Assembly: GCA_022829145.1 (NCBI GenBank)
Contig: CM040745.1
Coordinates: 24,520,906 to 24,584,905, forward strand
DNA: 64,000 nt
Origin: Albula goreensis
Taxonomy: Eukaryota; Chordata; Actinopteri; Albuliformes; Albulidae
Direction of reading: 5' to 3'
Position numbers and translations under genes: made by a program. Below the pieces are notes generated by a model, which was given only the letters and a program-made list of their open reading frames with translations, did no database searches and was not told where the DNA came from. Shown here piece after piece: positions 22,882-63,100 of this stretch. Position 1 is the first letter of the stretch. Each line of letters begins with the position of its first letter.

Positions 22882-24476
22882 TCATTCACATAAGAACAGG
22901 AGTTCTCTTGTATCATATGTTAATTCTGGTGATGCCACTTCCTCTCCCCCTGTGAGTGTGTTTTGTCCTCTTATTTTCAGATGGGTAAATTTAATCTTCC
23001 AGCTGTTGGTGTCCAGTGGGGAACGTATGAGGCCAAATGCTTGCTCGAAGATTCCTAGACAGGTGCGTTCGCGATGTATGGTCCCTGCCACTGCCACTGC
23101 CACCAGCCCATGAGGCGACATGGCGCATTTCAGCCCTTGGGGCACCAGGTTGGGACAGAAGAGGAGTCTCTCATCCCTAACAAGGGCTAGGAAACGATGA
23201 CTAACCAACTCTGCTCCATGAAACTCATCTGCCTGCTGCATGTCTGTGATGTAGCAAAGGGTCATCCGCACATCCTCCCAGAAGTGCTGAGGACCCCAGT
23301 CAAGTGGTGTTTGGCCAAGTCCATTGTTCTGGGAGTTCAGAACCTGAAAGAACCACTGACAGAACTGCTTTCCCAAGGCCTGGTAGTCAAACGTACTGGT
23401 TCCTTCCCCTTCTCTGTGAAAATCCTCCTTTTTGTCATTGGCTGGGCCAATATCAGAGACCTTGAAAAGAAAACATACCTTTTTTGTGAAACTTTGTTAA
23501 TTTCCTGTTGTTATTAATTAAATCCTATACTTACTTCTCAGGATAGGCATGCCATATGGCTGCACTTCAAAGGGCAAATCTTGCAGGTTTTCTCTTAATG
23601 ATATTGTTTCACAATAAGGCATGTCAGTAAAATTGTTCACAAATGTTAATTTGTTTAAAATCGTGATACTTAAACTTACACATACTGCCCCTAAATTTTT
23701 TCAACCTCTGCCTAACACCTAACTACTCATGTAACATACAAAATAAAAACTTAATAATGTAAATTTCACAAAAATAACTATTCTAATTACCTTTATAATA
23801 ACATTTTTCAGAATTGTTTTGCAGTCACGACATACCTACTGCAAGAAATTAATCTAGTCACACTTTTACTTTTTTCAACATAGGCACCAGAGTTTACCTG
23901 TGAAAATTGATAACACAGCGAGCAGTGGTCCAGTCAACAATACGTTAAAATGCAACCTTCAACGTTACAATGTTTTCATTTACATTGCGCCTAGAGTGCA
24001 CCTATTCACATCCACATATGTATATACATAACTTCGATTACCATCTTCTCGGAATCCCATAGCTGCAGAGTTCTCTTCACAAGCTGATTTTTTTCACTGT
24101 TTGGAGGCATTACTACATTCATGCCGGCCAGGTATTTGAACAGAACGTCACGGTGCACCTTCTTTCGCCTCAGTAACTCTTCCGCACTCTGGCTGTATGT
24201 AAGGATAGCCTCCATTGCCTCTGTATATTAATAACGACAATGTATAATGAGAAATATAACGAACAGTGCAGCAGATGATTATGGTCCAATTTGTATGATA
24301 AACAATCGATGGCTATATTGAAAAAATGCTGTCAAATTTCCGGCCTCACCTTTCGTGTTTTCCACTGCAATCATCCGGTTAGTGACGGTATCACTGAGAG
24401 ACAATAAATCATTATTTGACAGACGACTCAGCATTTCAGTGCAACCTTCTCGCTCCTTTCTGGATAACCCTGACAT
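22882..24476 (-). CDS. C3orf38: C3orf38 homolog
   Basis: Three coding exons on the minus strand: 24476-24350, 24220-24042 and 23460-22882, phases 1 and 0. They give a 294-aa protein, slightly shorter than the roughly 330-aa human one. Matching blocks are MSGLS at the start, DTVTNR, AILTYSQSAEELLRRKKVHRD (as broken pieces), FCQWFFQVLNSQN, WGPQHFWEDV, GLKCAMSPHGLV and TCLGIFEQAFGLIRSP. The middle and C-terminal part resembles an NTF2-like fold in general descriptions of the family, and an apoptosis-related role has been suggested for the human protein, but its biochemical function is not established. It lies head to head with the Grx-DEP-DUF547 gene, about 1 kb apart. Confidence 0.93.
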
Positions 24477-25496
24477 TGTCCAATTATTGTCAATAAACCA
24501 GCAAGCCAGCTAGGTACAGCAACTACGCGGACTGTTCTTCGCTCATACTGTGGAATTACTGATCCGTCTAGAAACTACGGCCAGCCACCAACGTTCCGGC
24601 ACGAGCTGTAAAAAGTAATTTGGGCTGACTCTACCCCTCACTATGTTGACAAAGTTATCACTTCTTAAAATCAACAAAAATACACCACATATGTACCTCA
24701 CTATATTTCGAAGTAGATCAAGTCAATTTAGTTCACCAAAAATATGTTTTTGGTGAATGTTAAGTCATCTGATACAGCGAAATCGCACGGGGACTAGAAT
24801 GTAGAAACAACACGACCCACTAGTCTGTATAGTAACAGGATCGACGTACACAGCGGTGTCGTATGATGATAATCAGCACTGCACATTGCAGAGTTTGTTC
24901 TTTGGTGCAGAAAAGATACAGATCCCACTCAGCTTGACAAAGACGACCTAAAGCTCAGCGTATGGTTGATTCACGAGGACCAATTCAGCGATCGTATCAT
25001 TTGGTTTGAGACCCTGTTTTGCTACACTTAAGTTTAATCAGAATCTTTTGGTCAGTGATGTGATAAGCTTACTGTATTTATAGTATTAATCAGTCTACAT
25101 ATCAAAATGTGGAATATAGCATGGAAAGTAATGCGGAACATGCATGGAGTGCCTTATTTGCCTTGTCCGCAAAAATCTCTGAAGGCCTTTGTATGATCTG
25201 CACTAATTAAGTTGCAGTGCTCTGCAAGATAGATTTGCTGGCGATTCCACATTGACCCAGTGTGAGGGACTGTACAATTCCTGGTAATGTGTATTATTTT
25301 ATAATACTTAATCGATTGCATTTTTCCCCAGCCAAACAATTTTACAATTTATTTGTTAACGAGTTCACATCCCTTTCTTCAGCGCTGTTCCATGGGTACG
25401 CAGAATTGATTCTTGAGAACTATTTCTTATTCATATGAAATAGAAAAAACAGCTGACTAGCAGTTCGCAGTGTGTTAATATGCCAGCAACTTCACT
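24477..25496. promoter_or_regulatory. Shared divergent promoter region of C3orf38 and the Grx-DEP-DUF547 gene
   Basis: The start codons of two divergent genes are separated by about 1.0 kb with no other gene between. The part next to C3orf38 has several CpGs. No TATA box was noted for either direction. Divergent transcription from this segment is inferred from layout alone. Confidence 0.5.
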
Positions 25497-28400
25497 ATGC
25501 CGAGCCTCAACGCAGGTAAGACATTACGAGAAAATAAATGTAGTAGTTAAGAATAGCCTGCATCATGGTGGTTACAAGTTTCAGTGACGTATCAAATTGA
25601 CAGATGATCCACTTGAGGTGGCCAAATAATTAGAAAATCTAATATTAAAACGTGTGTCACCACCTACGCTAACTGGTTTAAGTCGATGATTCACACTCGG
25701 CAAATTTATTGAAAATGACGCACCCATGATAGTTGCTATACACAATATATGTTTTTGGAATATGTGTACCGTTTTTTTTTTTTTTTTTTTTTAAATCGCA
25801 GAAGCTCTTGTCAAGGTCAAATTCATGTGCCGGTAATTTCAGCATTTTCATCCAGATTCGATATCCACTTAGCCAGATGGTGAGGTCTTCCGACAAACGC
25901 AGGTCAAGCTGAAGTCAAGCTAGTCAAATAGCCACCTAATCACATTTACTAGTGGCTTATGGTGGGATTACATTTTAGCAGTAACCATAATATACCGGGT
26001 TACTATGTAGTCTTACTATATTGAAAATGACGGGATTCGGGGCTGCTTGATTTAGCGACTGTATAAAACATAGCCTATGCGAGATCGATAGATAGATGGG
26101 TTGAGATGAAATGCTTGCAGGTAGCGTAGTCAACTGAATTCAGCTAAAATGTCAAAAACAACATGGTAGTCCGCGTTTAAACAAGGTAACGTATGCTACT
26201 AGGTCATTAGTTAATTTTCATTTTATGGTCTGATCAGGAAAAAAAGAACGCTTTTTTGCCAGTATTCGACTGTCTTCAAGGGTAAGATAACGCGTCTACA
26301 CACGAAACTGTGTTTTTGATTGCCACTTATAAATATTTGTGGTCTTGCAAGACTGCAGAATCGAGCAACTGGCCAGCACACCGTGCGGTGCGTCGCAGCT
26401 GGTTAGGCTAACAAAGATAAACAGGATCAGGATGGATTCAGAATAGCCTTCTTCCAATTTGAAATTAATTTTAATTTATTTAATTCGATAGCCTGCTTTA
26501 CGGCGATATCAGACACACACAAATATCACCTAGTTTCCTTGAGGATAACACGTTCAAAGTTACGGTTCTCTTCCATGAAATGAAAACAGCACAATTTTCT
26601 TTTGGCACTTTCAAGTTTGCCTGGCATGCTATTGGGTATTTTGTTTTATCTTGGAGTGTACGTGACAAGTTATGACGCATTATGAATTGTTATTTGTCAC
26701 AAGATAATCGAAATGAGAAGTTTCTGAACTCTAATGATAAATTAAGATGGTTGAAACCTTGTTTACATTTTAAGCAGTAAAGAATGGAAATATACTGAAA
26801 TAATTTTATTTTGAAGTGCTTCGTTTTCCTCAAATGATTTCGATCAAGAGTTGCATGGCGCGGGTGACCACACATGAAGATGTTTACTACCCTCAGCTGT
26901 ATCGGTCAGTAAATCATGAAAAATTGGAATTTTAGCAAGAGGAATAATTAGGCATAATGCGGCATTTAGAGGGAGAATCATCCCACACTAGAGATTCAAA
27001 TTATAAAGCCACCCAAGATTTTTTTTTTTTTTTTTGTAGATTTCTTCCCTTGGTATGGTATTTGACCTTTTATGAATTATTTATTGGTATCACCACTGAA
27101 ATATGATTTTCTGAATACTCGATTGCTCAATGTAGCTGACTGGTGATTCCACTCACCTGTTCCCCCTAGTCGAGATCAGTTCTGATTAGAAGGGAGGAAT
27201 GAAAACCAGCAGTACTACTGGGCCAGGTTTGACCATCCATGCTTTAGAGGCTGAGGCTACCAGCATCTCTCACCTCCTTTTAACCACATTTTTACTCACC
27301 AAAATTAGTTGTATGAGCAGATGTGTAATGTATTTGTTTTTCATTTTTAACAAATGAAATAATCTATATGCTTTTGAAGTTTCAGCATTTACATAATTAT
27401 ATTTAAGTAGAAGATAAAAAAGAAACCGCCTTTGTTGATCCTTTTTTCTGTTTCGTTTACAGGATCTCCAATGGATGGAGCAGAGAAAAGCCAGATGGGA
27501 AGGGTGACAATATACTCTGTGATGGGCTGCCCACACTGTCTGCAGGCCAAGTCTTGCCTGCAGGAACTGGGGTTGCAGGTACATGAGGTGGACATTAACC
27601 AGCACACAGAGCTGTGGGTTCGAGTAAAGGAGCTCACAGGCCGCAGCACAGTGCCCCAGATATTCTTCAACAGTGTCCACATTGGTGGAAACGATGACCT
27701 CCAAAAACTGGTGAGAATGTAGAAATGGAATCATTAAATTGAGAATCTAGCCACTGGCAGATGGATAAAAATGTGCACCAAACTACAAGCCTAAAAATGT
27801 GAAACTACAGTCTATGGATTTGTAACAAGGTATTAATCGAAATCCATGGAAGGTCAATTTTCTCTCTTCAGCCATATTTCAGAAATGGCTATGCATGCTA
27901 TAAAGAATAAATGTCTTAATCATATCCCAGGGATTAGGTGGATCAACTACTGCTTTCATTTTCGATAATGGACTGTATGGAAAATTATCCCTTTATAACA
28001 ATGTTACAATTTAGTTTTTAATTTGTTCTGTAATTAAGTACACCTGGTGACTGAAACTAAATAATTTGTTAGGAAACAGTGAATTCAAAGACACATGGCA
28101 AAGAGCCAAACCCGCTGTGGGTTAATAAATGTACTATAAAAAATATTCAAGAAGTTATCCAATTTTGAAAAAAAAAATATTCAAAAGTATGCTTTGAAAG
28201 CTGTATTTAATGAAAATATGGATTTAATACAAAATAGCATACTGTCCATCCACAGGGCCAAGTTGAGAACCCCTGATATAGTAGTTGCCCTGTTTGAGAG
28301 ACATATCACTACATTTTAGAAAAAGATGATCATGAGTTATATTTGGTTTGGTTAAAGATTACCTATATAATTATATTCTGTTTTTGCCATTTGTAATGTT

Positions 28401-31400
28401 ACTGTCCTTCATGTCTTTTGGGCTGGGCAGGCTCCAGAAGAGCTGGAGCGCCTGGTGCACCAGGTGAGAGAGGAGCCAGTACCATCAGACAGTCCCCCTC
28501 TGCCTGAAGAGAGCCATGTGGAGGCACCAGGGAAGCAGGATGGAGGTGAGTATGCACTGTAACAGAGGCTCAGTGTTGTCTCAAAAGTTGTCTTTCCTGA
28601 GTGGGTGCTGGAACACTGTCCTCAGAGTCCTTCTTATATCGCACCTTTTTAAAATGTGATCACTGTAAGGAGCTATTGTTACATTAATAAATATGCATAA
28701 GTAGTTAATAGGTGTTCTACCACACAGACTGACAAAAATTAAACCAATGACTGTAAGGCAACCTGTTGTCATCTGTGTGTGCTTTAAGTTTAATTAATGA
28801 AGAAATAAATTAATGTAGCCATAAAATAAAGAAGCAAAAAACTGGAATATCAGCATATTGCACAAATATCAGAATACTACAGATTAACTGAGAATTGGGA
28901 AGCAATAATAAAGCCCAAGTGCTTTTTTGTTGGGGGGAGGCATAGAGAGAGACCATTAGAAATTTCTGTGCATGTTACGTGTTGTTGGGACAGCGGTGCT
29001 GGGCAAACATTGACATGTACCAGCTTGTAGTTGGTGTAGTAATGGGGTGTTTATCCTTGACTTTGCTTAAGGAATATAAGCAATTTATTAAGATTATTTG
29101 GCAGTTTCTGGAAAAATTAATAAGTCATAAAGTTTATATTTAGAAACTGAGGCGAAAACAGAAGGAAATATAATAAATGTACTGAGCTTCGCACTGTTTT
29201 AGAACCATATAAAATGTATAGGCCTGCTCAACCAGTTGTTCAGTAGCCGTCTTAACCGTTACTGCATTAGAGCATTACTGGGTATATCATTGTCTGTTAT
29301 TGTCTCTCAGGTCTCTTCGGTCAAACAAAAGAGCACTTTTGTTTTTTGTGCTTTGACTTCGATAGAAACTCCAAGCAAGAGCTACTGTTGCCATTTCTTA
29401 CTCTACTATTGATTTGGCAGTAGCTTCAATAAATTGATAGGAGAATGCTGTGTATGAAACCACAAAGAAAAATAGAATTTTTCACTCACAGTAGAAGCTG
29501 GAGCTGTGGTTAGATGGAACATGAGCTTAGGCCAAGCCAGAGCAGACCTGTGGGTAGTTTGGAGCTGATATGTTTCCAGTGAACAGCTACAGTGGCCACA
29601 AAAACTTTGGTCCAGTGTGACATCATGCTGTGCTTTTGAAAGTTCGGCCTTGTTTGCCTCTTCAACAGAATTTAAGTGTGAGAGGGATGATTGGGCTGAC
29701 ATGGTCGAGGAGTTCAAGCAGTGTGGCGTGATTGGCAGCCACAGAAAGGGGCTGAGGGTGTTCAGAAACAGCTTCACTGGAGCTCAGTTGGTGAATTGGC
29801 TGGAGAAAGAGAAGGGCTTGGGTAAGTCATCTGTATACTTTTGTTATAAGTTTGGGAGGGAGTTAATGATGGGTATTCAGGATAGTGTTTCTTGAAACTG
29901 ATGGGAGACATTTTTAGCAATGTCTCTTGTGCCACTTTATTTAACAGTGAGTGAATTAGCTTGTATCTTTGTCATAGGATAAGCTTTCCAGAAATATAGA
30001 ACATTTCCTCATTTGATTTTCTCTGATATAGGTCTTGTGAAACTAGGTCACTTGTTCACAGTACATTTTAGGACTTTGTTGTGGCATAAGCTTCAGTGTC
30101 CCTTTCTCACATTGTACTAGTTCTTGCCAGCCATAAAAATACCCATTTAAATTCCATTACTGATACTGAATTTACTTATGATATAAGTGTTATTACCTGA
30201 TCTGACTGTTGCAAATACAGACAATTTGAAGACATTCAGGAATTACTCTTGAGAGTCATATTTCAGCAGGCGTATAAACTGGATGACCATACACATGCTC
30301 ACATGTCTAGGTGTTTTGCTGTCTCCTCAGAGAGATTCTTATTCAATTAATAGAGGTTTATAAAGAAAAGGCTCTCAATCATTTAGAAACAGTTGGAATA
30401 CACAAGGAAGTAAGATAAGGTTGATAAACCTAGTGCTTCAAATCACAAAGAAAATGGGTTGCTTGGTAAAAAGCCTAGGTGAACAGCCTATTTTAAAAAA
30501 ACAAGGAGGAAGAGCCAGTCTGCAGTAGGTCATTTGATTCACTCACCTGCCCTGTGTTTATCTAGGCTATGCAAAACAACCCAACAAAGATGCGATATTC
30601 AGTGCTCTAAAATGTAGAAAATAACATTTGCTTGTTCAAATGTATTAATTTAGGATCACCCATCTTTTAATGCCTCAGATGCAACATCTTTTATTTGAAT
30701 GCATTTCTGTTGCATTCTTGGTTATTAACATGATTGATTTTTCTCTACTCCAACATAGTGAGAGCTTCATAATTTACTAATTTTGTGAATTTTAGAATTT
30801 AACACATAGTTGTAGTGAACTAATAATTCTGGTTGTGCTGTGGTATTGGTATTTACACTAAATGTACATCAGGAGCAATTATGTGAGGAATGCAGCATTT
30901 GCAGGATAAAATACATGCCAAACAACCAGTGTATGGCTCCACTGTCTCAACAGCCACACAAGCACTCTAAAGCACATTCAGGGAATATGTCACTGGCATA
31001 CCTGATCACCACATGACATCTGAATCTCTGTGCTTAACACTAAGGACAAATACAGTATAACCTCAGAGACCAGAAAATGCTAGTAAACCAAACTGGAACT
31101 TGTATTTTAATTATGTCTCCTTAATTCAAATCTCTGATACAAATAGGGCAGCATTTACCTGAAACACTATCATATCTTTATCTGGTTAAAAAAAACCTAA
31201 AATACTATAATTAGAGAAACATACATGTCTGAGACCTGTTTCTAAAATACAATATATTGGAAAATGAACAAGTCAGAAAGAAAATACTGTTCATATACTG
31301 AATACAAAAGCTGGTGGTTGTACAAATCGTTGTGAGAAAAATGATCCGTTCCCCAGCCCACCACCATCTCTCTAATTTGGGTCTGAAGATCTAATTTATA

Positions 31401-34400
31401 AAAATTTCAGTTTTGGTATTGGGCCAGAAGAGCAGACATTGTTGTAGGTGCTTTATCATATCGGACCATATATGCCATTATCAGTGTTTTAATTTATTAA
31501 ATAATTGTGTGTAAACATACAAATAGCATATAACCCCACCAGTAAATGAAAACCAGATTTTGCTTTGCAAATGTTTTTGTCCCTCTTAAATAAAACACCT
31601 TTCCAGACAGTTTTTATTTCATCTGAAAAAAGTATTTTCTAGAAAAACATTAAAGACTTGTTACAAACTTTTAGATAATCTGAACGGTTACCTCACATTA
31701 CAGCACTGTGAATAGAAATGTGTACAATACAACATAATCGGATGATAATAGGCTTAAGCTACGTAATAAGCTTTACTGTAAATCATGGTTACCATGGTTT
31801 GTCGCTCTTAAAAATTTCAATACCCTGTAGATTTTAGGTAAATGTAATTTGGCTGAATTTATGGTCTTATGGTTTTATACTATTATGTTCAACGATATCT
31901 ATGCAGTTATTATTGTGATCAGGTAATCATTTTGGCAAGTCTGTGTTGTAAACTTAAAGGAAATTAATGTAATATACAAATGCAAATTTCCCAGGAATCC
32001 ATATGGGAAATTTTTTGTCATAGATACTTGTAAAATATTTGTACTCTGCCACTTATTGATGTTGATGTTTTCTAGAGATTACCAGATCTGATAAGTTTCA
32101 TGTTAGCAGAAACTATATTAATCATAGTAGTTAATTCTGGGTTACTTGCGGATAAGAAACCAGCTCTAGGCCGAAGGATGTTTTAACCACATGCAGGACA
32201 ACTGACCTGAATTGATTACAATTCTTACACGCTAACCAATTCTTGCTTGCACCTTGTAGACAGGAGTAAGGCATTTGAGACGGGCAAGGTTTTGATGGAC
32301 AGGAAGTTTTTTAACTCTGTGATGGGGAAAAGAGAGTTTGAAGAGAGTAGCGCCCTGTTCAGAATGCTGGAGCATGACCCACACTCTGCACTCAACGTGA
32401 GAGAGATGGCCACTTGCAGTCCGCTGGAGGGTATGTAGAGACGAAATAATGACCTGGTGATGACCAGGGTCAAAACAAGTGCACATTTACAATGCACCTA
32501 CATGTGATGTAGCTGTGAAGCAGGAAGGACTAACCCCAAATCCCCTCCTAGGTGCTGTACTCAGTAACATACATAATATATTCCTTATTGTTAAGAATCT
32601 AACATTGTGTCAATCAGTTCTCCAGAGGAGCGATGGTTTTTAAAAATTAAACCCAGGGAAAAGTTTGGCTGGACATGTGCACATACTATGTAGGTTGCAT
32701 TTAGAGTTTCAATTGCGAGATGTCAATCCAAACACTTTCTCTGGGTTTACTTTAAGGGGCCAGTGTAAAGTTTATTAAGAGCTTTTGTGTATTAGCTTAC
32801 CCTGTGGTGGTTCTGGAAGACCACTGCTTTTTGTTTGTAGTTTCCAGTGTCTAGTAAAGAACTGCCACTCAGTACAGAAAGTTGAGACATTGCAGAGATT
32901 AAGAAGCACTCTCAGCCCCATTACAACTCTGGGTTTCTATGGAATCTGCCTAAGGAACAGAAATTTGCACTGTGAGTAGTGAAGTGCTTGCAGCTCAGTT
33001 TTGTGATTCTGTTTGTCCCACTGTGATGCTGGTGTGCTCTGATGGTGTCTGTGTCCTCTTGTCTGCCATGTCGGCCTTGCTGTGGTCACTGTGCATTCCT
33101 GAGATTGTTCAAATCATACTTACTATCTGGGAAAATCAATTTAAATGGAAAAAAAGTGAATTTTTATTCTTAATGGATCTTGAACCTTAAGGGAAATGAT
33201 ACAACAGTTTGCTTTGTTCTGAATGTCTCATTCCAACTACATGGACAAAGGGGTAAACTGAAAGCTATGTAAGCGAGTGCCAAGTTAAAAAAAAAAAAAC
33301 ATGCAGACTTCAATATCCTTTGTGAATTGGAATCCAAAGGACTAATTTCTTTTTCACCTCACTGCTGCAGAATTAAGAGGACATTAAGCCCTGTATAGGT
33401 TAGCTGCTTTATTTCTACATTTTGTGATCTGCTTTTACTGATAAAAATAACCAGAACAGTGGTGTTTAATTTGGGTCCAAAGGAGCCATGATCATTTTGC
33501 CTTGAACAGTAGGTCACCCTCTATAACCTATATTGAACCATTGGAATCACATTAATTGGTGGTTTAATAAGGAAGTTTAAAAACAAAAAAGAACCAGTAA
33601 AAGGACGCCTGAGGATCTGTAATGACTGTTTAAAAAGCAAAAAGGCATGTAATAGAAAAGCTGATAGAACATGAGGTGTGGAGATTGTATTTCATTTTTA
33701 AGTTTTGGACTTCAGTTCCCATCATCCCTTGTGGGGAACATTCTGTGCTTAGCTGCTTGGTATACTCAGCCAAGCCATTTACAGATCTTAGTTCATAATT
33801 CAAAAATTTGGAATACTTTCCAAAATTAAAGGGTGACATACAGTGTAATTCGAAAAGTGTCTGTTAGTGATCAGAGGTCTGACAGACTCTATGATCAGTT
33901 TATTCTCTTCTTCTGATAGTGCTATCTGACATATCGCGGGATAATTAAAACTGATATATTTTCAGCCTGTGATAATTGGCTGTACATTCTATGTTACTTC
34001 TGACTGCTAACAATAATTCCCACTACTCTGCTATATGAAATAAAGACTGTTGTGTTCTGTTGTTACCATGCTACCAGTTAAAGCAGCAGGAGATCAGGCC
34101 ACATTCCCTTTATGAGCCTTCCTTTGCTCAAAACAGCCTCTGTTGGGGCTCCCAAGTGGCATATCCATATGAGGAAAACTTTATTATTCTACTGCCTGTG
34201 ACTGAGAGTCCATCAGGGTAACATAATTCCCCATAGTGACCATTGGCAGTATGTAAACAACCACTGTTAATGACACAATTATGACTAGTCTGTTGTATTG
34301 CTCTGTTTTGAAACAGTGATACAACACTATTTGCACAATGAAAAATTTACCATCAGGAGCATTAGTGAATTCCATGTCTCTTATGTGTTCAGCTGCAGAG

Positions 34401-36986
34401 TTGTCAGAGACTCTCCGGAACATGATGCTGAGACTCTATTCGGAGCACCTCTCTGTGGATGGAAAGGTAAGATGACTGTACTGGTGAAATACCATACTCA
34501 AAACATGTATTGTCATAATGCATGCCCCACTTACTCTTTCTACATGCCCATTCCAGTCTTTGTGTCAAAGGCTTTGCTTTGGTAACTTCTGTTTGGTCCT
34601 CCCAACCCTAAAGTGCCATTGTAGTCTCTTCTCAAATCTCTTAATCAAGAATCATTCCATTCCAATTCTGTATTCAACTCAATCTCCTAAGTACCTCAGA
34701 CTTCTAAACATGCAGGTTGATTTAGTGTTCTGCTCAACATTGGAAGAGATACTGTACCAAAAGTGACTGGAAAAATATTGCATACTGGCTTGGGATAAAC
34801 ACTTCTTCATGAAATGTGTGAATGTGGCAGTGATATTGCATACTGTTGGATGTTTCTGTTGTATTTTTGATTGACTTTTCACCTGTTAACTTGAATTAAA
34901 TATAGTCACAGATAAGTTCCTAAGTATCACATAACAAATGTAGTAGTAGTAGCATTACTACATGCACTCTCAAAGCTGCTCCCAGTTTCCCTTTCTGCAC
35001 TAATCCTCTGGCGCTTCCTTACACAGTATTATCAGTATGCAAACAGAATATGCAAAAAAACTAACATGAAAGTGGAAGTTTGAGGAAGAAAGCTTCACCT
35101 CATGTGTGCTGTTGGACATCCCTGTTCCCTTGCCTTTCCCCCTCTCCCCCACTCCTCAGTCAGTGGATTACAAGGCGATGTCCCAGAGCCTGTCGTTCGA
35201 GCATTACTGCGAGCTGGCTGTGCAGCTGCAGCGTGTGGAGCTGCAGGCTCTGAGGCGTGAGGAAAAGCTAGCCTTCTTCATCAATATCTACAATGCCCTG
35301 GTTATCCATGGAAATCTACGGCTGGGCGCCCCAAAAAACATGTGGCAGAGATACCGGGTAAGAGTCCATCAAAAACATCATGAGCCCTTTACACTGAAGT
35401 TACTCTTCACACCGAACTTCTTAGTTACAGTCCCTGTAATTCATGTTGTAATAGATTTTCCCCTCAGTCATGTGGTATGTTCATGCCATTCCAAATTTTC
35501 TGTATTCGCTATCATATAAAAATGATTTTGAATTTACAGTATTGAATGTTTTGTCTGTAAATATGTATATATAATAATGGTTCTTGTGTGTTTGTTGGTT
35601 ACAAAAGAAAATATTATGTTATATGCATTAACTGGTAATGCCATTCCTGATTGTTTTCCAGTTCTTTAACTATGTCAGTTACCTCATTGGTGGGGAGGTG
35701 TACACCCTGCAGGACATTGAGAATGGGGTACTGCGGGGGAACAGAAAGGGTATTGCACAGATCCTGAAACCATTCTCAAAGAGTGACCCCCGGCTGCAGG
35801 TACATTAAAAAAAATCTCAAGCTCTCATTTTAATGACATTCAGACTCTACAAGCACAGGTGTGTATACATATACGTGTGTGAGTGTGTGTGTGCGCATAC
35901 ATTCTGTCATAACTGTGTTCCTGCATTCCAGTGTGTTTATTAGGAAGGGGAGTCTTTGTTTTTCCTGTTCAAAGTGGTGGGGTCACCTAGTCTTGTCTCT
36001 GATTTGATTTGCACCAGGTGGCACTTCCAGAGGTAGAGCCCCTTATTCACTTCGCATTGAACTGTGGTGCAAAAGGATGCCCGCCTATCAAAACATACAC
36101 AGCTGAGGTAAAAGGAGAGAGTATTCATTAATGATTTTTGTAGTGTAACTGTAGGCACAAAAACACAATCAAATATTTTTGCAGCAAATACATTAGCCTT
36201 GGATACTAACTTTGATTCTTCCTAATAATATAATTGAAGGTAAGTGTAGCTATAGCTAGCTTCCAGACTGTTAATGCTGTGCACTTACTTTTTGCCTGAC
36301 CTAAATTATGTTTTGCCTGAATTGAGAATAGTGAAGTCAGTTGAGGGAGGCCTCACATTCTGGCTGACACCCACAGGATATCGACCGTCAGCTGCGGATG
36401 GCAGCAGAAGCGTTCCTGGAGAATGACGAGGGCTGCAGAGTGGATGCTGTGAAAGGGGAGGTCAAACTCAGCCAGATCTTTAAATGGTACAAAGGGGACT
36501 TTGGTGACACAGATGAGGAGGTACAGTGATATATCATTATGACATTATCATGGCACTATGTGGTGCAGTGGTTAAAGCAATGGACGTTAGACTTAGGTGC
36601 TGAATTCTTCATATGCTTATCACTATAATTGCACCCCATGCACACTACAGTGTTCACTGCCAAAAAGATGAGCTCTCACTTAATCATGCACGTTTCTGTA
36701 CGTTTCATAGAGCGGTTGCTCTATGATGTCTCTGGAATACTGGTTCAATTGAAATGTTGTTATTGTCAGTATTTCATGTAACCAGGTGTAACTGATCTAT
36801 GGTGTAACTGATGATGGATGGCTGTCTATTGTGTCTGTTATGGCTTTCAACCCATAGATGCTGAACTGGATTTTAAACCACATGAGTGACTCCCCTAAAA
36901 AGTCCAGTCTACAGACTGTAATGAAGGGCGGCAGCTTCAAAGTGAGTTTCATGCCATATGATTGGTCCAGCAACAGCAAGGACTGA
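25497..36986 (+). CDS. Glutaredoxin-DEP-DUF547 multidomain protein
   Basis: Eleven exons in consistent phase: 25497-25515, 27463-27710, 28431-28545, 29669-29821, 32260-32430, 34393-34466, 35160-35357, 35662-35799, 36018-36107, 36377-36520 and 36858-36986. The product is 492 aa. Residues 20-89 form a glutaredoxin fold with active site CPHC (29-32), cis-proline TVPQIFF (69-75) and a GGNDDL glutathione-binding turn (81-86). A Pro/Glu-rich linker covers 90-127. A DEP domain follows (about 130-215; RKGLRVFRNSFTGAQLVNWL). DUF547 fills 236-492 with FFINIYNALVIH (299-310), HFALNCGAKGCPPI (383-396) and a terminal MPYDWSSNS. There is no signal peptide or membrane segment, so a cytosolic protein is likely. 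Known domain properties suggest thiol redox chemistry plus membrane or G-protein docking through DEP. The function of DUF547 and of the fusion is unknown to me. The start in exon 1 is preferred because MPSLNAG joins exon 2 in frame; an ATG at 27471 is a fallback. Confidence 0.9.
36545..36740 (+). mobile_element. Possible tRNA-derived SINE fragment
   Basis: In the last intron of the Grx-DEP-DUF547 gene, GGCACTATGTGGTGCAGTGG and the following TTAAAGCAATGGAC look like a polymerase III A-box head of a tRNA-derived SINE. The B-box is degraded and the ends are not defined. Confidence 0.35.
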
Positions 36987-43649: not shown

Positions 43650-46600
43650 TCACCAGGCACCTAGAAAATAAGATTTAAGGAAGATATTTTAACAGTCATG
43701 GGAGGAATGTCACTATAATAAATTTGAAATCGACTATGGGACAACACTATAACTGTACAAGTGAGTACTTTTGTATAATACCCTTAAGTATCCCGCTGTA
43801 GCAATGGATAATATGGAAAACAAATTATGCGTCAACCATGATGGTTAAACAACATTAATAATGTATATTACAATTTTAATCTATAAACAAATAAGTGTTT
43901 TTTTGAAAAATCACTTTCATCAAGTGGGAAAACTGCAGACTAACTTACTTTCTTCATCAGAGTCAAACCCAAAGAGAGACGTGCACTTGTTGAGAGAGAG
44001 GTGGCTCTGCAGGTCCTCCACACTGCTGAAGGAGGAGAAGCACTTGGTACAGCGTCGTCTCTGAGCCTCGCTGCTCGGGTTGTTCTGCTCCACAGAGGAG
44101 CAGGACTCAGTAGGTGACAACTTCCTGCGCTTTGGCATGCTGATGTAGCGCTCATCGAGGTAGGCCGAGGGAGGAGGTCGCACAAAGGGCCTGCTGGACA
44201 TTGCACCATAGGCAGAACGCTCCGCTTCAACTTCTTTGACCTTTTTTTGTCCCTGGACATTGAGCTCCTGGTGCCGTGTTTTACTATCTGATTCCACTTT
44301 TTTGTCCACATTGTTTTGTAGTATGGTCTCCTGACCACTGTCCTGTACGGGAATGTTCTTGGTCTCATTTTGTGGCAGAGCAATATTTTCACTGTGTCCA
44401 TTCATTATCTGTGTGTTAGAGCCAATGTGCTCTGGAGATCCCACATCGTCATTTGCTACAGGCCTTTCTACTGTGCTTGTTTCACTCACAGTCTTGTTTA
44501 CCTCTTTTACTACTTCTTTGCTGGTTACTGCTTTGCCTTCCCTATTAATCGCATCTAGTACAGTGGCATCTTTTTTTGCAGACTCTTTCTGGACTTTCAA
44601 GCTACAATCTGCAGCATTTTGGGGGTCTTTTCTTTTCTGTCTCATTGACCTGTGGACTTTGCGGTGTGCCCCAGGTTTCTGCTTGTCATCGTCTATGTTA
44701 GGACCTGGGTAATGCTGCCACTCATGATCTTGCAGTTGAGACAAGTGACAGAAGATTTTGGAACAATCAGCATAGGAGCACTGTGCTTGAAGTGGCTGGT
44801 GACTTTTTAAGTGACCCCGGAGTTCTGCCCTTGTTTTGAACCTGGTTTTACATCCAAGATGAAGGCAGAAATGTTTCAAGGGATGGTCATGCCTTTTGAT
44901 GTGATCTTGGTAGTGCAAGAAACTCCAAAATGTTCTTTGGCAAAACTCACACTTTCCCTTTCTCCAGTGGAAGGCAAATTCCTGGACTTTTACATCACTG
45001 TGGTGAGATGACATTCCATGTCTGATCATCGATATCCCTCTTCTGACAAACTTCTTTGTGCATCCATCTGCAGGACAGCAGTATTGTTCCTTTCCAATCT
45101 CCAACTTTCCTTCCACAATGGATCCATTAGCTTTCCGTGCTCGTTTTTTCTTCTTGATGGCATTGGAATCCTCTTCTCCCTCTGTGGTCTGCAAGACTTT
45201 AAGCTTTTTGGTGAACTTCCGGTTGTTTGAAGGAACCATTTTTTCAGCACTGGCAGCTGTTTTCTTTTCTGACTTGGCACTTCCTGATGATGACCTTTTT
45301 ACATATTCCAAGGTTTTGGGAGTTCCATTTTCAGGAGGTAAGGTACAATTACAGTCTGCTTCGGATCTCAACTTCTTTATATGTTGCTCCAAATGTTTCT
45401 TTGCAATGAGGGGACGGTTAAATATTTTTCCACAAAACACGCACTTCAGAGAGTCCCTCTGAAGGTGAGCAACAGCATGGCGCATAATGTTGCCACCTTT
45501 GAATTCTTTGTTGCAAAGCTTGCAGCGATACTTCACAACTTTTTTTGGATGCGTATGGGGTACAGTTGCCAGTTCAGGTACAGGTTCATCAGAATCCTTT
45601 TCTTGCTCCACATCTTCAACCTGTGACAGCATAATGGGAGGCTCTTGGTCTTGCACAGATTCAGGAACAAGGTCAGACTGGCCCACACTGTCATTTAGGA
45701 CATGGTTAATAACATCACAAGGGACCGTTTGATCAGTGAGGACAACAGTTGCATTGTCAAAAACAATTGTGTTATTAACTGTGTCACCAACTGTGTCACA
45801 AATGCTTTCAGCATTTTCATTGCAGGCTGTTACACTTTCATTGAGGGCACAGACTGTGTGCTGGAGAGGACTGCCTAAGTCATTAGTAATAGAGGTCGTA
45901 TCATCCTGAACACTAATCACGTTCTGAGGAACAGTGGATGTTGAATCAACACAACTCTCTTCCGCTTGAATAAATTCTTGATGACCAACTGTTTCAGGTA
46001 GCTTCTCAATAACCTCAGGCATCGTTTCTGATTCTACAATGTCAAGCTCTGAGCTTGAACCCACTCCTGATGGAGTCTGTGATGGCACAACTTCTACTAC
46101 AGGAAGCTCACAGACTACTTCTGAAGGTTTCTGCACAATCTCAGTGTTTTCTGACAGACACTCCTGTGGTGCAGAGGACAGCTCTTCTGGGGCTGATGAC
46201 GGGGGCTGCACAGTTTCCTCAGCAGCATCCTCTGGAACTCTACAATAGTTGTGCAACTGCTGTATTAGGCCTACATTATTATCTATCTCAACAGTACATT
46301 CCTGGTAATCCTCCCCTACACTGTCTGGTAGAGGGGCAAACAATGGTGAGTCACCAATGGGTTTGGTGCAAGAGCACTCTTCCCTGTCACAGGATTCCGT
46401 TAAGTGCTCTTGTAATGGAACTTCCTCTATGTCGATTCTGTCCCCATGAGTGTGATCCTGTTGAGCAATGTCAAACAGATGTTGCATTTCCACATCCTGC
46501 TGCTCTGAGAATATGTCCATCACTTCATTGTCAGGTATTGTGACTTCCAGCATGGCAATTGGGATGGCAGTCAGTACTGGGTCATCTGGTAGAGCTACAG

Positions 46601-47653
46601 CCAGTGGGGGTAATGTCTCTATTTGAAGGTGAACAGTTTCTTCATTTGTAGTGACGCCTGCTGGCAACTGAGGTGTTAGCTCAACACCACTGCTGCTTTC
46701 CTCTTTGAAAACTTCTTGTGCTTTGTCTGTGTCATTACATGTCTGTACCAAGCTATGGTCAGGAAGCTTAGCCTCTACATTTGGAGGAAGTTGTTTTTTC
46801 CTGCCTGGCCGTCCCAAATTTCTTGGGGCACTGTTCTCTTCCTGCTTGGCCCCCTCTTGCAGACGCCAGTGAGGTTTCCTGCCACGTCGTTTCATGGTCT
46901 TTTTCTCAGCCTGTCTGGCCATTAGTCTCTGCTGCCTTTTGTCATGTTGTCTGATTGAGTTTTCCTGAGCCATGTCCAGTTGTCTGAAGGACCGTCTTAA
47001 CTGTGAGTCATCTGTCACACTGATAACACGTGATCCTGGTTTCCTGCCTCTTCTCTTGACATGAGACACCTCAACCCCCTCAGGTGGCACTACAATGCGT
47101 TTTATCACAGGCTTATTTGGCTTTTTCACAGGGTGTCTCCTCACTAGATTTGCATTATAGTTTGGTGTGTCTGAGAGGACTTTAGTTGGTTCCTTCACAC
47201 AGTAATTTGGTATCCAATTGTCCTCCTCCATGATCTCATTTAGAGCAGCTTGCATGACCTTCTCATTCATAAGTTTCAGACAGTTGGTCCTCAGAGTGAT
47301 GAGATTCCAAAATTCTGGATCAAAAAACAGTCCCTTTTTCAGGATTTGGAGGATCTCAAAGCGGATGTGGTTTTTGACCATACAGTAGTCTGCATGGTAT
47401 TCCTGGTCTGGATGAGTGTAAAGGAGGTACACAGTCTTATAGGACTCCACAGTGCGTTCCAGGAAAAACACCAGAAGAGCACAGGCCCTGCAGACCTCCA
47501 GGTCATTGGGCAACAAGAAGGCAATGGTCTTATAGATGAGCAACTTGGCTACAGGGTCATGGTGCAGGTCCATCTGAAGAGCACGCGCACATAGCTCCAC
47601 ACAGAACTGCAAGCCTTCGTTCCCCAACTGACAAAAGAAAAGGGAAATTTTTA

Positions 47654-47691
<38 letters not shown>

Positions 47692-53647: not shown

Positions 53648-54936
53648 ACTGCTTGTCTTACCCTGCGCGTACAACAACGACCACACAACTCCTGTAAGAT
53701 TAACTTCCGGTACAACCCACTCTCTATACTCTGATTCGATAATGTTTATATCAGTCGCATACTTCCTCCCTATGTTTTTGCCACCGATTGGGCTGTTTTG
53801 AACATCATTCATATGCACTTATCATATGTTACTGTTTGAAATATCTGATTGGACACGTACTTCAGGCTTGGTTTTTATCATAATAATAGATTACGCATAG
53901 TTAAGTTGCCAGTTGGTTACACTCTATCAATTATAGCACCCAATTAGTTGATAGTTAATTAGTCGTCAGATAATTCTGCCTTATCACACCTTTACCACGA
54001 CTTTTCTTGAGAGACCCAATAATTGAAATAATTTGGCACACTTTTTATTTAGGCTCGGGGCTAAAAAAATATAAATTACTTTTCAACCTGTATTTTCGAA
54101 ATTTTCTAGATAGGCTAAATGTTACACGGGCAGTCTAAGCTCCTAGATAATTCTTGCTACATGGCCACATGTAACTACTTGCAGCCTGCTTGCTAACAAC
54201 ACATTAATTTGTTGATTAATCGGAGCGTTACCAGTTTAAATAATCTGATTGATATTCTACAATCAAATGTTATTGCGTGACAAAAACAGGATCACTCCCT
54301 CCAAACAACGATTTGCCTTGATAATTAAGTCCAATTTGCGGCCATTTGCTGTTATTTTCACTAATTTCTTATGAGGCAACAGGTGAAATTCAAATAAACA
54401 ATAAACCAAACGTAAAATGATGAAAATATGTCACACCCATGCCGATAACGCTACTTCCGGACTAATCTCTTTAAAACCTCTTGCAAACCTGACTTTAAAG
54501 GCTCACCGAACGTTTGGCTCTCATGTTAGTTGTAACTAGGTAGTTATAATTTAGCTTCTGGGTCGTTCAGGTGAACTATAGGTATGTAATGTTTGTTCAA
54601 ACGGGTAAATGTTGTACTTGAGCAACTTTTCAATTTTATGCCTTCCAGATCAGTTAGAGGTATTTGTTTGAGCCCACTTGCATCAGCTTGACATTGATGA
54701 TCTTTTAGGTGGTAAAAAAAAATCCAGTAATTTAAGGATTACTTTGATGAGGTTGTTCAAATTCATTTGATAGTTCCCATAACCTGTAGCTCAGATCAGC
54801 TGTGTCAAACTTGTACAATGTGCTTGTGCAGAATTGTGTGTTTCAACTGATGTCTTGATCAGTTATGTTGCATCTCAATTTCTTGAATGTCTAACTGCTT
54901 TGTCTTTTGGATTTTTGACAGCCTTACTGACTTAAG
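53648..54936. promoter_or_regulatory. Divergent upstream region of ZNF654 and the claudin gene
   Basis: Holds the ZNF654 promoter on the left and the claudin 5' UTR on the right. A claudin non-coding exon probably ends near 54581 (ACTATAG|gtatgtaat) and splices to an acceptor at about 54921 (tttttgacag), just before the start codon. The exon start was not determined. Confidence 0.4.
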
Positions 54937-55566
54937 ATGGTGGCAGCAGCTCTACAGATTCTTGGTGTGGGACTGTGCATGCTGGGATGGCTGGGGGCCA
55001 TTGTGTCTTGCGCTCTACCACTGTGGCGTGTTACAGCCTTCATTGGGAACAACATTGTGACTGCTCAAGTGATGTGGGAAGGCCTGTGGATGAGTTGTGT
55101 GGTGCAGAGCACAGGACAGATGCAGTGCAAGGTCTATGACTCCATGCTGGCCCTGTCTCGAGATCTGCAGGCCTCCCGTGCCCTCATGGTCATCAGCATC
55201 CTTCTGTCAATCTGTGGCCTGATGGCCAGTGTTGTTGGTGGAAAATGCACCAACTGCATGGAGCAGGGCTCCACTAAGACCAGGATCACATTGGCAGCAG
55301 GCATGCTGTTTACTGCTGCTGGTGTGCTCTGCTTGGTACCTGCTAGCTGGTCAGCGCACAGAGTCATTAGAGATTTTTACAACCCTTTGGTGGCACAGGC
55401 CCAGAAACGGGAGCTAGGGGCTGCCATATTCATTGCATGGGGTTCAGCTGCCCTGCTGCTCATTGGAGGGGGTCTCCTGTGTAGCTCCTGCCCTAAAAAA
55501 GGACAGGACAAAGTCGGCCGATATAAGTTGGCAACCAACCACAATGTGCGCACAGGTTATGTCTGA
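54937..55566 (+). CDS. Claudin (claudin-3/4-like)
   Basis: An intronless 209-aa reading frame. It has four predicted membrane segments (about 8-28, 82-101, 116-136 and 160-182). The first extracellular loop carries the claudin signature W30, G49-L50-W51, C54 and C64 ([18 protein letters not shown]). The second loop contains DFYNPLVA (146-153), as in claudin-3/4. The tail has membrane-proximal cysteines (C182, C185) and ends in TGYV, a PDZ-binding C-terminus for ZO proteins. Claudins form tight-junction strands controlling paracellular permeability in epithelia. Teleosts have a large claudin expansion with many single-exon copies, so I do not assign a paralog number. Confidence 0.93.
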
Positions 55567-59092: not shown

Positions 59093-60178
59093 TCAGAGGT
59101 AATATCTACACTTGACCAGCTTTTGAAAGGCCTTTTTGAAGTCCTCATTAAATATTGTGTATATTAATGGGTTTATAAGGGAATTGAGGTAGCCCAGCCA
59201 AGTCAGAAAGTCAGCTATTTCTGCTGATATGCAGCATGAGGTGCAGGTGTTGACGATGACCTCCTTCAGAAAGAAGGGCAACCAGCATATGATGAAAGCA
59301 CCCAGGATCAGGCCAAGAGTGGTGGCTGCCCTCTTCTCCCTAGTTCCCGAAATTTGATGCCTTCTGAGGGACCTCTCCCTGTGGGACCCAGACCGTGGGC
59401 TCCTGACAGTGATGCGGACACGGTCACCCTCAGTAGATGGGTCTGAGTAAGACTTCTCAGGAGGGCTCAACACATCAGGGCTATAAGGTTCCATGTCAGA
59501 ACACTTGGGCAGCATGCTGCCATTCGTTTCTTGTCTGTTGATGCGGCTGGCACCCCTCTTATGATACAGAGTTTTGGCTGCACGATAAATCTTGTAGTAC
59601 AGTATGAGTATGAGGGCAAGTGGAATGTAGAAGGCCCCAAAGGTGGAGTAGATGGTGAAGGCAATGTGGTTGTGCTTGATGAGGCACTCACTGGCACAGT
59701 CTCCATGGTACCTCCACACTAATGGGGGAAGTGAGATTAAGATTGAAAGGATCCACACCGCTGCAATCATGAATGTTGCACGCTGTGACGTCCGCTTGCG
59801 TGAGTACTCCACCGCATCTGTGATCGCCCGGTACCGGTCCAGAGCTATGGCTGCCAGATGCAGGATAGAGCAGGTGCAGCACGTGATGTCCACACCCAGC
59901 CAGATGTTGCACACCACCCGGCCCATGATCCAGTTCTGCTTGATGATGTAAACGATGCTGAAGGGCATCACCAGAATGGCCACCAGCAGGTCTGTGACTG
60001 CCAGTGAGCAGATGAGGTAGTTGGCAGGATGATGCAGCTTCCTGGTGACGATGATGGCAGTGATGACCAGGGAGTTTATGCCAGTGGTTATCACAGCAAG
60101 AAGGGACAGTGTCAGGGACAGCAGGACCTTACTGCTGGTGCTTTTGCTAACCTCAGTTGTGCAGTTAGTTAAATTCAT
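59093..60178 (-). CDS. HTR1F: 5-hydroxytryptamine receptor 1F
   Basis: A single 361-codon exon. It is a class A GPCR with seven hydrophobic segments. Key residues: N-glycosylation sequons at N2 and N5, D97 (Asp3.32, amine anchor) in VDITCC, DRY at 114-116, disulfide cysteines C90 and C165 (or C161), CWLP at 298-301 and NPLIY at 336-340. RAITDAVEYSRKRT and KIYRAAKTLYHKR match HTR1F rather than HTR1E. The receptor couples to Gi/o to lower cAMP on serotonin binding at the plasma membrane. The N-terminus is shorter than in human HTR1F and starts MNLTNCTTE. The third intracellular loop is Ser/Pro/Arg-rich. An upstream non-coding exon is likely. Confidence 0.95.
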   Translation of the reverse strand: MNLTNCTTEVSKSTSSKVLLSLTLSLLAVITTGINSLVITAIIVTRKLHHPANYLICSLAVTDLLVAILVMPFSIVYIIKQNWIMGRVVCNIWLGVDITCCTCSILHLAAIALDRYRAITDAVEYSRKRTSQRATFMIAAVWILSILISLPPLVWRYHGDCASECLIKHNHIAFTIYSTFGAFYIPLALILILYYKIYRAAKTLYHKRGASRINRQETNGSMLPKCSDMEPYSPDVLSPPEKSYSDPSTEGDRVRITVRSPRSGSHRERSLRRHQISGTREKRAATTLGLILGAFIICWLPFFLKEVIVNTCTSCCISAEIADFLTWLGYLNSLINPLIYTIFNEDFKKAFQKLVKCRYYL

Positions 60179-60199
60179 CCTTCCAGGTGGCGCAAATTT

Positions 60200-63100
60200 C
60201 CAATATTATGTAATTCAAACAAAAATGAAGAATACATTAGTTTAAGGCAAATGTAATTATAAAATGAAAGTATTTTTTGTTATTTTACAAGAATCAAATT
60301 ACTGTATACTGTTATATTCACCACACAAACAATACACCCCAAATTTCATACAGAGATCAAGCTGAACGTTTTTGTTCAACCAGCTATTCTGTCATGGAGG
60401 AGGAAATTGTCACGGTGACCAGGTGCAATCTGTGGCTTAGCTGGAGAATTATTCAGCACCAGATCATATACAGCACAGCAGGGATTATCAAACGCTTTCT
60501 GGGGAGCCCCCTGTGATCAATGGCTTTCATTACAGCCAATATCTTAATTATGGTTTATGAAGAATTGTTCTACAGTTTTTTCCATTCTTTAACATAATGT
60601 ACAAATGAATCATTGCATTTGCTCTGTCATTTTCCACAAATGCTTTTGCCGCAGTGACTAATGATAGTATGACAAGGAGGTTACGTGAATCCAATAATGG
60701 GTAGAACTACACTCTATGGCAAGATCTGCTGTTCCTCTCCTTACAGGCAAATACATTGATGTTATAGGGGATCATACTATATCCCTGCAATTCTTCACAC
60801 CAGAAGTTGGCCTGTTCACTTCTGTACCTTCAAGAGCATCAATTGGACAAATCCAAGGAGAATCTGGTTTTGTGACAGGGACTGTGGGCCATCCAAGCCT
60901 TTGTCCTCACTGTTATCAGTCACACTGCAGTGGGAAGCATTGCATGGTCACCATCTAAAAAGAGTGAATCAAGAAGAAATACCAAATGTTAGTGTGAACA
61001 GGAAGACCAGGTTGCTTGATAAAACAGTGGATGGTGTACAGCAAGCAGAACACTGCCATATCCCTGACATGAATATTGATCAAAGAGAGGCCTGTGATTT
61101 TCACAAAAGCAGAGACCTCTCACTGTGGCCTTAAGAAGGAAACTCACACAGTTAGGGAAGACAACAGAGCTTACAGCACATTCATGTTTTTTTGTATAAT
61201 GGATATAAGTTATTTAGATGCCTTGGCATTGGATCTCGTTGATACCATTGTCTGGAGAGGGCATTGAAGCTATGCATAATGTGGCAGACCTTTGAAAAAA
61301 GCATGGGAAAAAACATAATCCAGTTTCTGTTTTCCATGACCCCAGAAATGCTCATGAATGTTACCCCTGTTTAATTTTCAATTTATTCAGTTACCTCAAA
61401 TAACACTCATTTAAACCTGTTAAGTTATCCACATTAAAATGAACTGAAATCGTTATCTTCATTACTTTCCACATTCAGCAATGCAAACGGTTCTTGATGA
61501 TATTAAAAATTAGTTGCTGGTTGATGTCTGGCAGATTATGTAAGAATTGAAATAAAGGACAGTTAAATTGGCCAAATATATATAAGCTACACTTAAGATA
61601 AATATATATAACATATACAAAATATAAAATACAACCTTTACCCTTTATAAATTAGCTATCACTTTCTTAAACAGAATATATCACCATTATTACAATTATC
61701 TGCATTGGGTCAAAGGTCACAATTTCAGCCCTTGTCCTTAAATAGTCATAGCACAGCAAAAAACATATATTTATTGATGAAACATATATATTTTTTAATA
61801 TATTTAAAATATTGTGTGTGTTTCTGTACTGTCCTGGCAGCACAAGAAAGGATTTTCAGTTAAATGTATTGAGAGACTCAATACATTTTATTGATAAGAA
61901 ATATAAACTTAAAATTGATAAGAAACAATATTAAGTTTATATAACCAAATTACTCAAGAACTGAAAGCCCTGCTGATGAAATAGTCACTTAAAATATACA
62001 AAACGTTGCCCATATTTGGAATTCTAAATCTGTGTTTCTCTGCCCCCATGCAACATTACTCATATTAACACATGGGTTTGCAATCTGTGTGCTTGGTGAA
62101 CAGAAACTAGTTTGTAAATGTATATTAATTAAATAATAAATATGGTATAGTATGGTTCACTCTTGAGTAGATGCCATGATTCAGTCTTAAGACTCCGGTG
62201 TACTTCAAATTAATATGAAGATTTATATGAAGCATACATAACAAAAACAATGATGAGAACAACCTTGTTTGCCCCCACATCACAATAACTCCATCTATTT
62301 ACAAATCTTTCCACCATGTATGTGTGGAAATGGTTGTCATGGAGACATTGTCTTTGTCTCAGGAATTTTCATTGAAGGAAGCTAATGAACTAATACAATG
62401 GTGCATAACGGCAGCTGTCATCAGATGAACAAATGTAAACAAAATGCACTTCTGTTCTTTCAAAGGTAAAATGTTTTATGTGTTTTATATGGTCAGTGAA
62501 GTAAACACAGAAGAGGTCATTTTTGTCCATGTCCAACAAAACATATTTCAAGTAGTCCTGCATGGGTAAATTTTGTTTGGTAATTTTGGTTGAAGCAAAA
62601 TAATGAGGGCAATGAATTGAACACTTGAACTTTCATGAAAAATGATTTTGTTTGACTATTAATAGTTAATATTTAAATACTTAAAAATTAATAACAAGCA
62701 GTGGCTGCAGGAGCACTCAAGGGAAACTGCCTACCTGCAACTTTTTGTAGCCAACTGCACTGCAGCCTGTGCAGTCCTGTGACGCAAATTCCTGCTGCTC
62801 AGATTTCTTGCATTGTCTACTTGGACTGAGGACAGTCACTTGACTGAAGGATTTTCAGTCTTTCATTTTGCACATTTAATTGTACTTCTCTGCACTTCCA
62901 TGAACTTTTTAGACCTACTCACTTGAGTTTACAAATTTTATTAAAGAATATTTTTAAGGCCCTGCTCTACAACTGTTTACATATGTGATAAAAACTTATG
63001 AGCACAAGATATTAAAGAATACTCACAACAAACTTCTGCATTGTGACCCCAGGTAAGCTGAGCCATCAGTCGTCCTTATTCAGGAAATCGAAAAAGGTCC

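Follow-up and report, generated by a model that had tools for sequence, protein, structure and literature searches.

A gene that joins a glutaredoxin (Grx), a DEP and a DUF547 domain in one predicted protein of 492 amino acids (aa) was found in a stretch of 64,000 nucleotides from Albula goreensis (Actinopteri; assembly GCA_022829145.1, contig CM040745.1, positions 24,520,906 to 24,584,905 of the forward strand), hereafter called the window. An intact gene with these three domains is almost certainly real. Its eleven exons, predicted from the window DNA, lie on the forward strand between positions 25497 and 36986 and were rebuilt into a single frame ending in a stop codon, with GT...AG borders in 10/10 introns. 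A preliminary description of the window had proposed both a single intact gene model of this size and the union of the three domains in one protein. The former is borne out by the rebuilt exons with their introns and frame, and the latter by a Pfam domain search.

Gene model and domain layout

Each domain exceeds its Pfam gathering cut-off, and therefore the three are not chance matches: DUF547 (PF04784) at residues 289-416 (7.2e-43, 146 bits against a cut-off of 27), glutaredoxin (PF00462) at residues 21-80 (2.5e-16, 60.1 bits against 22.9) and DEP (PF00610) at residues 149-213 (1.6e-12, 47.6 bits against 32.7). In an NCBIfam scan of the protein no model reached its cut-off, the best being glutaredoxin 3 with 68 of 90 bits. 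By exon, the Grx domain falls into exon 2, the DEP domain into exons 4-5 and the DUF547 module into exons 6-11. The protein is probably cytosolic.

The entire Grx domain, including CPHC, STVP and GGNDD, is encoded by exon 2 (27463..27710). The first and second parts of the DEP domain, in exons 4 (29669..29821) and 5 (32260..32430), are recognized by Pfam and by similarity to solved relatives. Exon 6 (34393..34466) covers the helix region at the N-terminus of the DUF547 module, and several bacterial matches begin there at query residue 1. This region is followed by the N-x-Y-N motif (N302, Y304, N305) in exon 7 (35160..35357), by the E346 motif and an insertion of the long subtype described below in exon 8 (35662..35799), and by the HFALNC-x4-CP motif (H383, C388, C393) in exon 9 (36018..36107). 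The C-terminal part of DUF547 with WYKGDF lies in exon 10 (36377..36520), and a YDW motif with the stop codon in exon 11 (36858..36986). Exons 6, 10 and 11 have little or no cover by the Pfam core model, yet bacterial relatives align to all three. Taken together, exons 6-11 are backed by tblastn matches to bacterial relatives, which cover residues 1-254 of the 257-aa module with 35-42% identity, for example those from loci L010, L012, L014, L016, L019 and L025 (among the best 80 of 587 relatives; L numbers are our own).

Two exons were placed by splice sites and frame, without homology support. These are exon 3 (28431..28545), an acidic/proline-rich linker, and exon 1 (25497..25515), the weakest of the eleven, which carries the ATG plus the first 6 codons and ends with the donor gtaaga in phase 1. 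Should exon 1 be wrong, Met10 or Met18 would still provide an upstream start for a complete Grx domain. The open 11-exon frame and the retention of the residues that are invariant in the DUF547 family argue, indirectly, for constraint on the gene. No tRNA was found in the 64-kb window, and no repeats of at least 30 bases between positions 24000 and 38500.

The Grx domain was compared with four solved glutaredoxins through their PDB alignments, two of which are near-identical. The active-site CPHC lies at residues 29-32. CPxC and GGxDD are kept relative to all four, and the cis-Pro loop TVP is the same as in two of them. Three positions before the first cysteine, the protein has V26, where all four have Lys or Arg, a residue that matters for glutathione binding and thiolate stabilisation. 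Thus, the earlier statement that all glutaredoxin features are intact holds for CPHC, TVP and GGxDD, but was overstated with regard to V26. This residue makes ordinary Grx activity less certain without affecting the domain assignment, and a role as a redox module is plausible. Among solved structures, the DEP domain is closest in sequence to DEPTOR and P-Rex.

DUF547 subtypes and prokaryotic contexts

From a scan of a collection of bacterial and archaeal contigs, the 80 best of 587 confirmed relatives were taken. Seven were left out of the alignment: L035 because of a contig end, L036 and L050 because of broken frames, L051 because of an open 5' end and a doubtful label, and L081, L085 and L088 as near-duplicates of L079. 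The contig of L051 is labelled as a Bifidobacterium breve metagenome-assembled genome and is possibly mis-binned. By their Glu-to-His spacing, 34 of the 73 remaining rows form a long type (34-38) and the other 39 a short type (12-24), a grouping introduced in this analysis. With a spacing of 37, the window DUF547 is of the long type, as are the loci L009-L032, where the spacing is 36 or 37 in 24/24 rows, and its best segments share 35-43% identity with L009-L025. Judged by these features, the window DUF547 belongs to a long subtype common to bacteria and archaea. In the plasmid set, several proteins of the short type start with an apparent signal peptide, as seen by eye.

Across both types, N89, E130, C177 and F227 (L009 numbering) are invariant in 73/73 rows, and N86, R135 and D226 are conserved in 72/73. 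H167 and C172 are also present in 73/73 rows, an invariance by construction, as both are part of the search pattern. N89, E130, H167, C172 and C177 correspond to N305, E346, H383, C388 and C393 of the window protein. C388 and C393 lie where they had first been placed, and the pair is conserved among the aligned DUF547 relatives. In the DUF547 tree, the window row attaches to the branch that separates the long from the short group, where support is weak (72/40), and for this reason we make no claim of descent from a given bacterial group. Viral contigs yielded 11 and 17 matches to the search pattern, none of them confirmed, and no DUF547 was found in phages. A sequence search for solved DUF547 relatives in the PDB returned only two matches at chance level (E 0.28). 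The predicted structure of the domain is compact and confident (mean pLDDT 93.5, pTM 0.90), and its comparison with the PDB gave no clear match.

For 20 of the 80 open reading frames (ORFs), the domains were determined with Pfam. These ORFs were mostly chosen for long N-terminal parts and include every one of the 12 in which over 300 residues precede the DUF547 match. A glycosidase precedes DUF547 in nine of the 20, that is, in 9/12 of those with the long N-terminal part. Three of them (L016, L032, L039) carry a TREH_N-GH15 module, and six (L024, L025, L027, L028, L030, L036, the last with a broken frame) an MGH1-like mannosylglycerate-hydrolase domain. The two glycosidase families are different ones, although they may be distantly related. 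The C-terminal position of DUF547 on both of them suggests that they have in common a step which follows or accompanies glycoside hydrolysis, and trehalase-like and mannosylglycerate-hydrolase-like partners offer concrete candidate substrates. In L021 and L023, a stretch at the contig edge resembles by eye the end of an MGH1-like domain, which Pfam did not report, and the short-type L064 has a VTT (TVP38-like) domain in front of DUF547. On two contigs, a glycosidase-fused long DUF547 is accompanied by a second DUF547, about 0.5 kb apart in G012 C99 (L024) and 7 kb apart in G007 C220 (L030).

Neither Grx nor DEP was found in the 20 scanned ORFs, where DUF547 stands alone or behind a glycosidase domain. 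A bacterial Grx-DUF547 fusion was considered as the source of the gene and rejected: among the 80 ORFs (the best 80 of 587, of which four have an open 5' end and two a broken frame), a CxxC precedes DUF547 in five and a CPxC in none.

The gene neighbourhoods were surveyed by similarity to seed proteins in 88 loci, namely the 80 and eight plasmid loci. Some seeds were drawn from these same loci, which thus match by construction; contig ends shorten many loci, and four, from Psychrobacter, are nearly identical. Radical-SAM genes of the TrsS-like kind were seen in 12/88 loci (11 within 2 kb), and they adjoin DUF547 in L003, L005, L007, L054, L067, L068, L071, L075, L078 and L082. Transferases similar to TIGR04283 and TIGR04282 occur in 15/88 (13 within 2 kb) and 12/88 (9 within 2 kb) loci, respectively, ArsS-like genes in 11/88 (7) and MerA-like flavoproteins in 11/88 (10). 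Less frequent are TVP38-like genes (8/88, 4 within 2 kb), MTA-phosphorylase-like genes (7/88, 2 within 2 kb) and glucose-6-phosphate dehydrogenase (3/88, 3 within 2 kb). With the caveats of seeds and contig ends, this concentration near DUF547 speaks against chance. Among the 24 loci closest to the window domain (L009-L032), four have any of the sought neighbour families (L016, L021, L025, L030). Three haloarchaeal DUF547 copies lie near thioredoxin, redoxin or peroxiredoxin genes, one of which is SelL-like but scores below its cut-off. Glycosidases, radical-SAM and redox genes together point to small-molecule metabolism more than to signalling. The redox-controlled signalling system of the preliminary description is best regarded as a guess.

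A possible mechanism and its alternatives

We tentatively favour a cysteine-dependent DUF547 enzyme centred on C388, whose thiols are maintained by the Grx domain in cis and whose location is given by the DEP domain. The DUF547 core would use C388 together with H383, E346 and the N-x-Y-N motif, and C393 would be a second cysteine, either resolving or a ligand. The substrate would most likely be a small glycosidic or thiol-bearing metabolite. A glutathione-fed Grx domain in the same chain would keep C388 and C393 reduced or deglutathionylate them, and DEP would provide docking to a membrane or a partner. The enzymatic nature of DUF547, the catalytic role of C388, the action of Grx on DUF547 and the docking target of DEP are inferences. 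The weight of the proposal lies with the strict conservation of polar residues, the fusion to two glycosidase families and the redox genes near some prokaryotic copies.

Several points weigh against this mechanism. No activity was found described for any DUF547 protein in the literature searched (titles and abstracts). The lack of a CPxC before DUF547 in the 80 prokaryotic ORFs indicates that prokaryotic DUF547 can do without a glutaredoxin in cis, and 20/24 of the closest loci (L009-L032) have none of the sought neighbour families. V26 in place of Lys/Arg may weaken the use of glutathione. Plant DUF547 proteins presumably lack the second cysteine, and such a loss would weaken a mechanism with two cysteines.

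A doubtful but conceivable alternative is that DUF547 is a non-catalytic binding or scaffold module, and that a DEP-targeted glutaredoxin deglutathionylates the partners bound by it, as part of signalling. DEP is generally a docking domain, its nearest solved relatives here are DEPTOR and P-Rex, and the Grx has kept CPHC, TVP and GGxDD, all of which would fit. However, the window protein retains all the residues conserved across bacteria and archaea, as would be predicted for an active site, and V26 is atypical for a glutaredoxin that uses glutathione. A metal site composed of E346 with H383, C388 and C393 (H-x4-C-x4-C plus Glu), in a metal-dependent enzyme or binder that Grx would protect or load, is in our view unlikely. 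Such a site would agree with the way in which these four residues are spaced and with their strict conservation, the His and the first Cys being part of the search pattern; against it stand the presumed plant proteins without the second Cys and the sequence search, which found no solved relative. That the gene is an artefact, with separate Grx and DEP-DUF547 genes wrongly joined by assembly or prediction, is scarcely credible. It would find room at exons 1 and 3, supported by splice sites only, yet the phase is kept in all ten introns, exon 3 joins Grx to DEP in frame, and plants presumably have the same domain order.

It is highly improbable that the protein acts on food-derived organoarsenicals or related (seleno/thio) sugars, with DUF547 related to a prokaryotic pathway of this kind. 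The idea comes from loci in which DUF547 lies beside arsenosugar-biosynthesis genes, by annotation in L004, L006 and L008 and by similarity in L030, L041, L043, L059, L063, L072, L077, L079 and L084. The DUF547 genes beside the annotated ones are of the short type, and one transferase there exceeds its NCBIfam cut-off. L030, a long-type locus, has TIGR04282- and TIGR04283-like transferases and a MerA-like gene, plus a short DUF547. Among 143 genomes of one class, DUF547 is present in 29 and ArsS, above its cut-off, in 74; ArsS occurs in 21/29 genomes with DUF547 versus 53/114 without (Fisher p 0.010). The centre genome G001 was chosen from a DUF547 locus, and without it ArsS occurs in 20/28 of the DUF547 genomes (p 0.015); both p values are rough, because the genomes are related and the relatedness was ignored. 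However, ArsS is the more frequent of the two genes, and they are found within 5 kb of each other on a single contig in only 4/21 genomes (3/20 without G001), with contig breaks possibly hiding some of the other 17/21. Moreover, most of the closest loci (L009-L032) have no such neighbours, the genes were named by annotation or similarity, and there is no link between the vertebrate protein and arsenic. The association of DUF547 with ArsS is partial, and DUF547 is at most accessory there. An arsenosugar role was therefore put low as a main explanation, the link being partial and mostly of the short type. Another reading, to which we also give very little weight, sees DUF547 as an unrecognised enzyme fold for unusual glycosides, which would be trehalose- or glycerate-type glycosides in bacteria and arsenic- or sulfur-bearing sugars in others. 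The vertebrate gene would then be a relative tied to diet or symbionts that carries its own glutathione reductant, and mammals would have lost it from the HTR1F-ZNF654-C3orf38 locus.

Locus and known systems

In the 932-Mb, 208-contig genome, a family search found DUF547 only at this locus, as three exon-sized matches, and none in 14 control genomes. With the Grx-DEP part as protein query, a search of the genome recovered four exons of this gene and nothing else (E 0.01); this search must miss ordinary glutaredoxin and DEP genes and is too insensitive to prove that these domains are single-copy.

Upstream, on the reverse strand, lies a DUF4518 gene in two pieces (22885..24509; Pfam), which is C3orf38-like and which we take to be C3orf38. 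The divergent starts of this gene and the Grx-DEP-DUF547 gene are surrounded by a CpG-rich stretch (24000..26799; base counts), a possible shared promoter region of the two. There, the observed/expected CpG ratio is above 0.7 in 11/13 overlapping 400-base windows (starts 24000-26400; range 0.43-1.15; 6-19 CpG each), as compared with 0.285 for the whole window; adjoining 400-base windows also reach 0.59-0.77. Downstream follow the large exon of an RLF/ZNF292/ZNF654-type zinc-finger gene (43923..47657, reverse strand; TPR_Rlf 1.2e-62), for which synteny suggests ZNF654, and an open frame of the claudin family (54931-55563, forward strand). Next is a single open frame for the 5-HT1F receptor orthologue (HTR1F; 59096..60205, reverse strand), with 553 bits to the solved 5-HT1F versus 426 to 5-HT1E. 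At 10604-12572 on the forward strand, ORFs resemble by eye a splicing factor of the ZRSR2/U2AF1 type whose tail is rich in Arg and Ser; for 11590-12081, no match was reported by Pfam.

To our knowledge, humans have no DUF547 gene. The accessible text of one study lists four coding genes in a 909-kb human interval at 3p11.2, namely HTR1F, CGGBP1, ZNF654 and C3orf38 (PMC2997777), and that of another names the same four for an overlapping interval (PMC6034250). As far as these texts go, the neighbours persist in humans with no Grx-DEP-DUF547-like gene named, and the gene is seemingly missing from the genes listed for a human locus that has otherwise kept its content. For chicken, C3orf38 and ZNF654 are named in the portion available of a further paper, which has nothing there on the intervening stretch (PMC6547531).

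DUF547 is spread over bacteria, archaea, this vertebrate and presumably plants. In the same literature search we found no DUF547 biochemistry or function, and no functional paper on the vertebrate gene, in agreement with the preliminary description, which knew of no function assigned in vertebrates. Likewise, no paper among the matches listed combined DUF547 with glycosidase names or with arsenosugar. Also among the matches listed, the Grx-DEP/DUF547 architecture was not described, including under class IV and the Arabidopsis gene names. One article mentions a plant 4CxxC subgroup and proteins joining Grx with other domains, and the words DUF and Dishevelled are absent from it (PMC9405309). 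The single locus makes the function of a vertebrate DUF547 gene testable by knockout.

The closest known systems include plant proteins. Plant glutaredoxin reviews describe Grx-DEP-DUF547 proteins, and we take Arabidopsis At4g08550 and At3g11920 to be multi-domain proteins with these three domains in the same order, placed in class IV in some plant glutaredoxin classifications; their active-site letters and second DUF547 cysteine may differ from those of the window protein. Vertebrate orthologues with the same architecture presumably exist as uncharacterised database entries, such as a zgc-type entry of zebrafish. Because of the presumed plant counterparts, the fusion is probably no vertebrate peculiarity, as the preliminary description had implied it to be, and its architecture is more likely old than recent. 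Long-type bacterial DUF547 proteins (L009 and L011, and the glycosidase-fused L024, L030 and L016) share the subtype and the Glu-His spacing with the window protein but, unlike it, stand alone or behind a glycosidase, with no Grx or DEP in the 20 scanned ORFs. The dithiol glutaredoxins 2mzc, 1nm3 (HI0572) and 1fov (E. coli Grx3) resemble the Grx domain in CPxC, the cis-Pro loop (TVP in the window protein, 1nm3 and 1fov, TFP in 2mzc) and GGxDD, whereas the window protein has CPHC instead of CPYC/CPFC and Val26 instead of Lys/Arg. DEPTOR and P-Rex are similar to the DEP domain by sequence, and the window protein differs from them in having one DEP match, within a redox protein.

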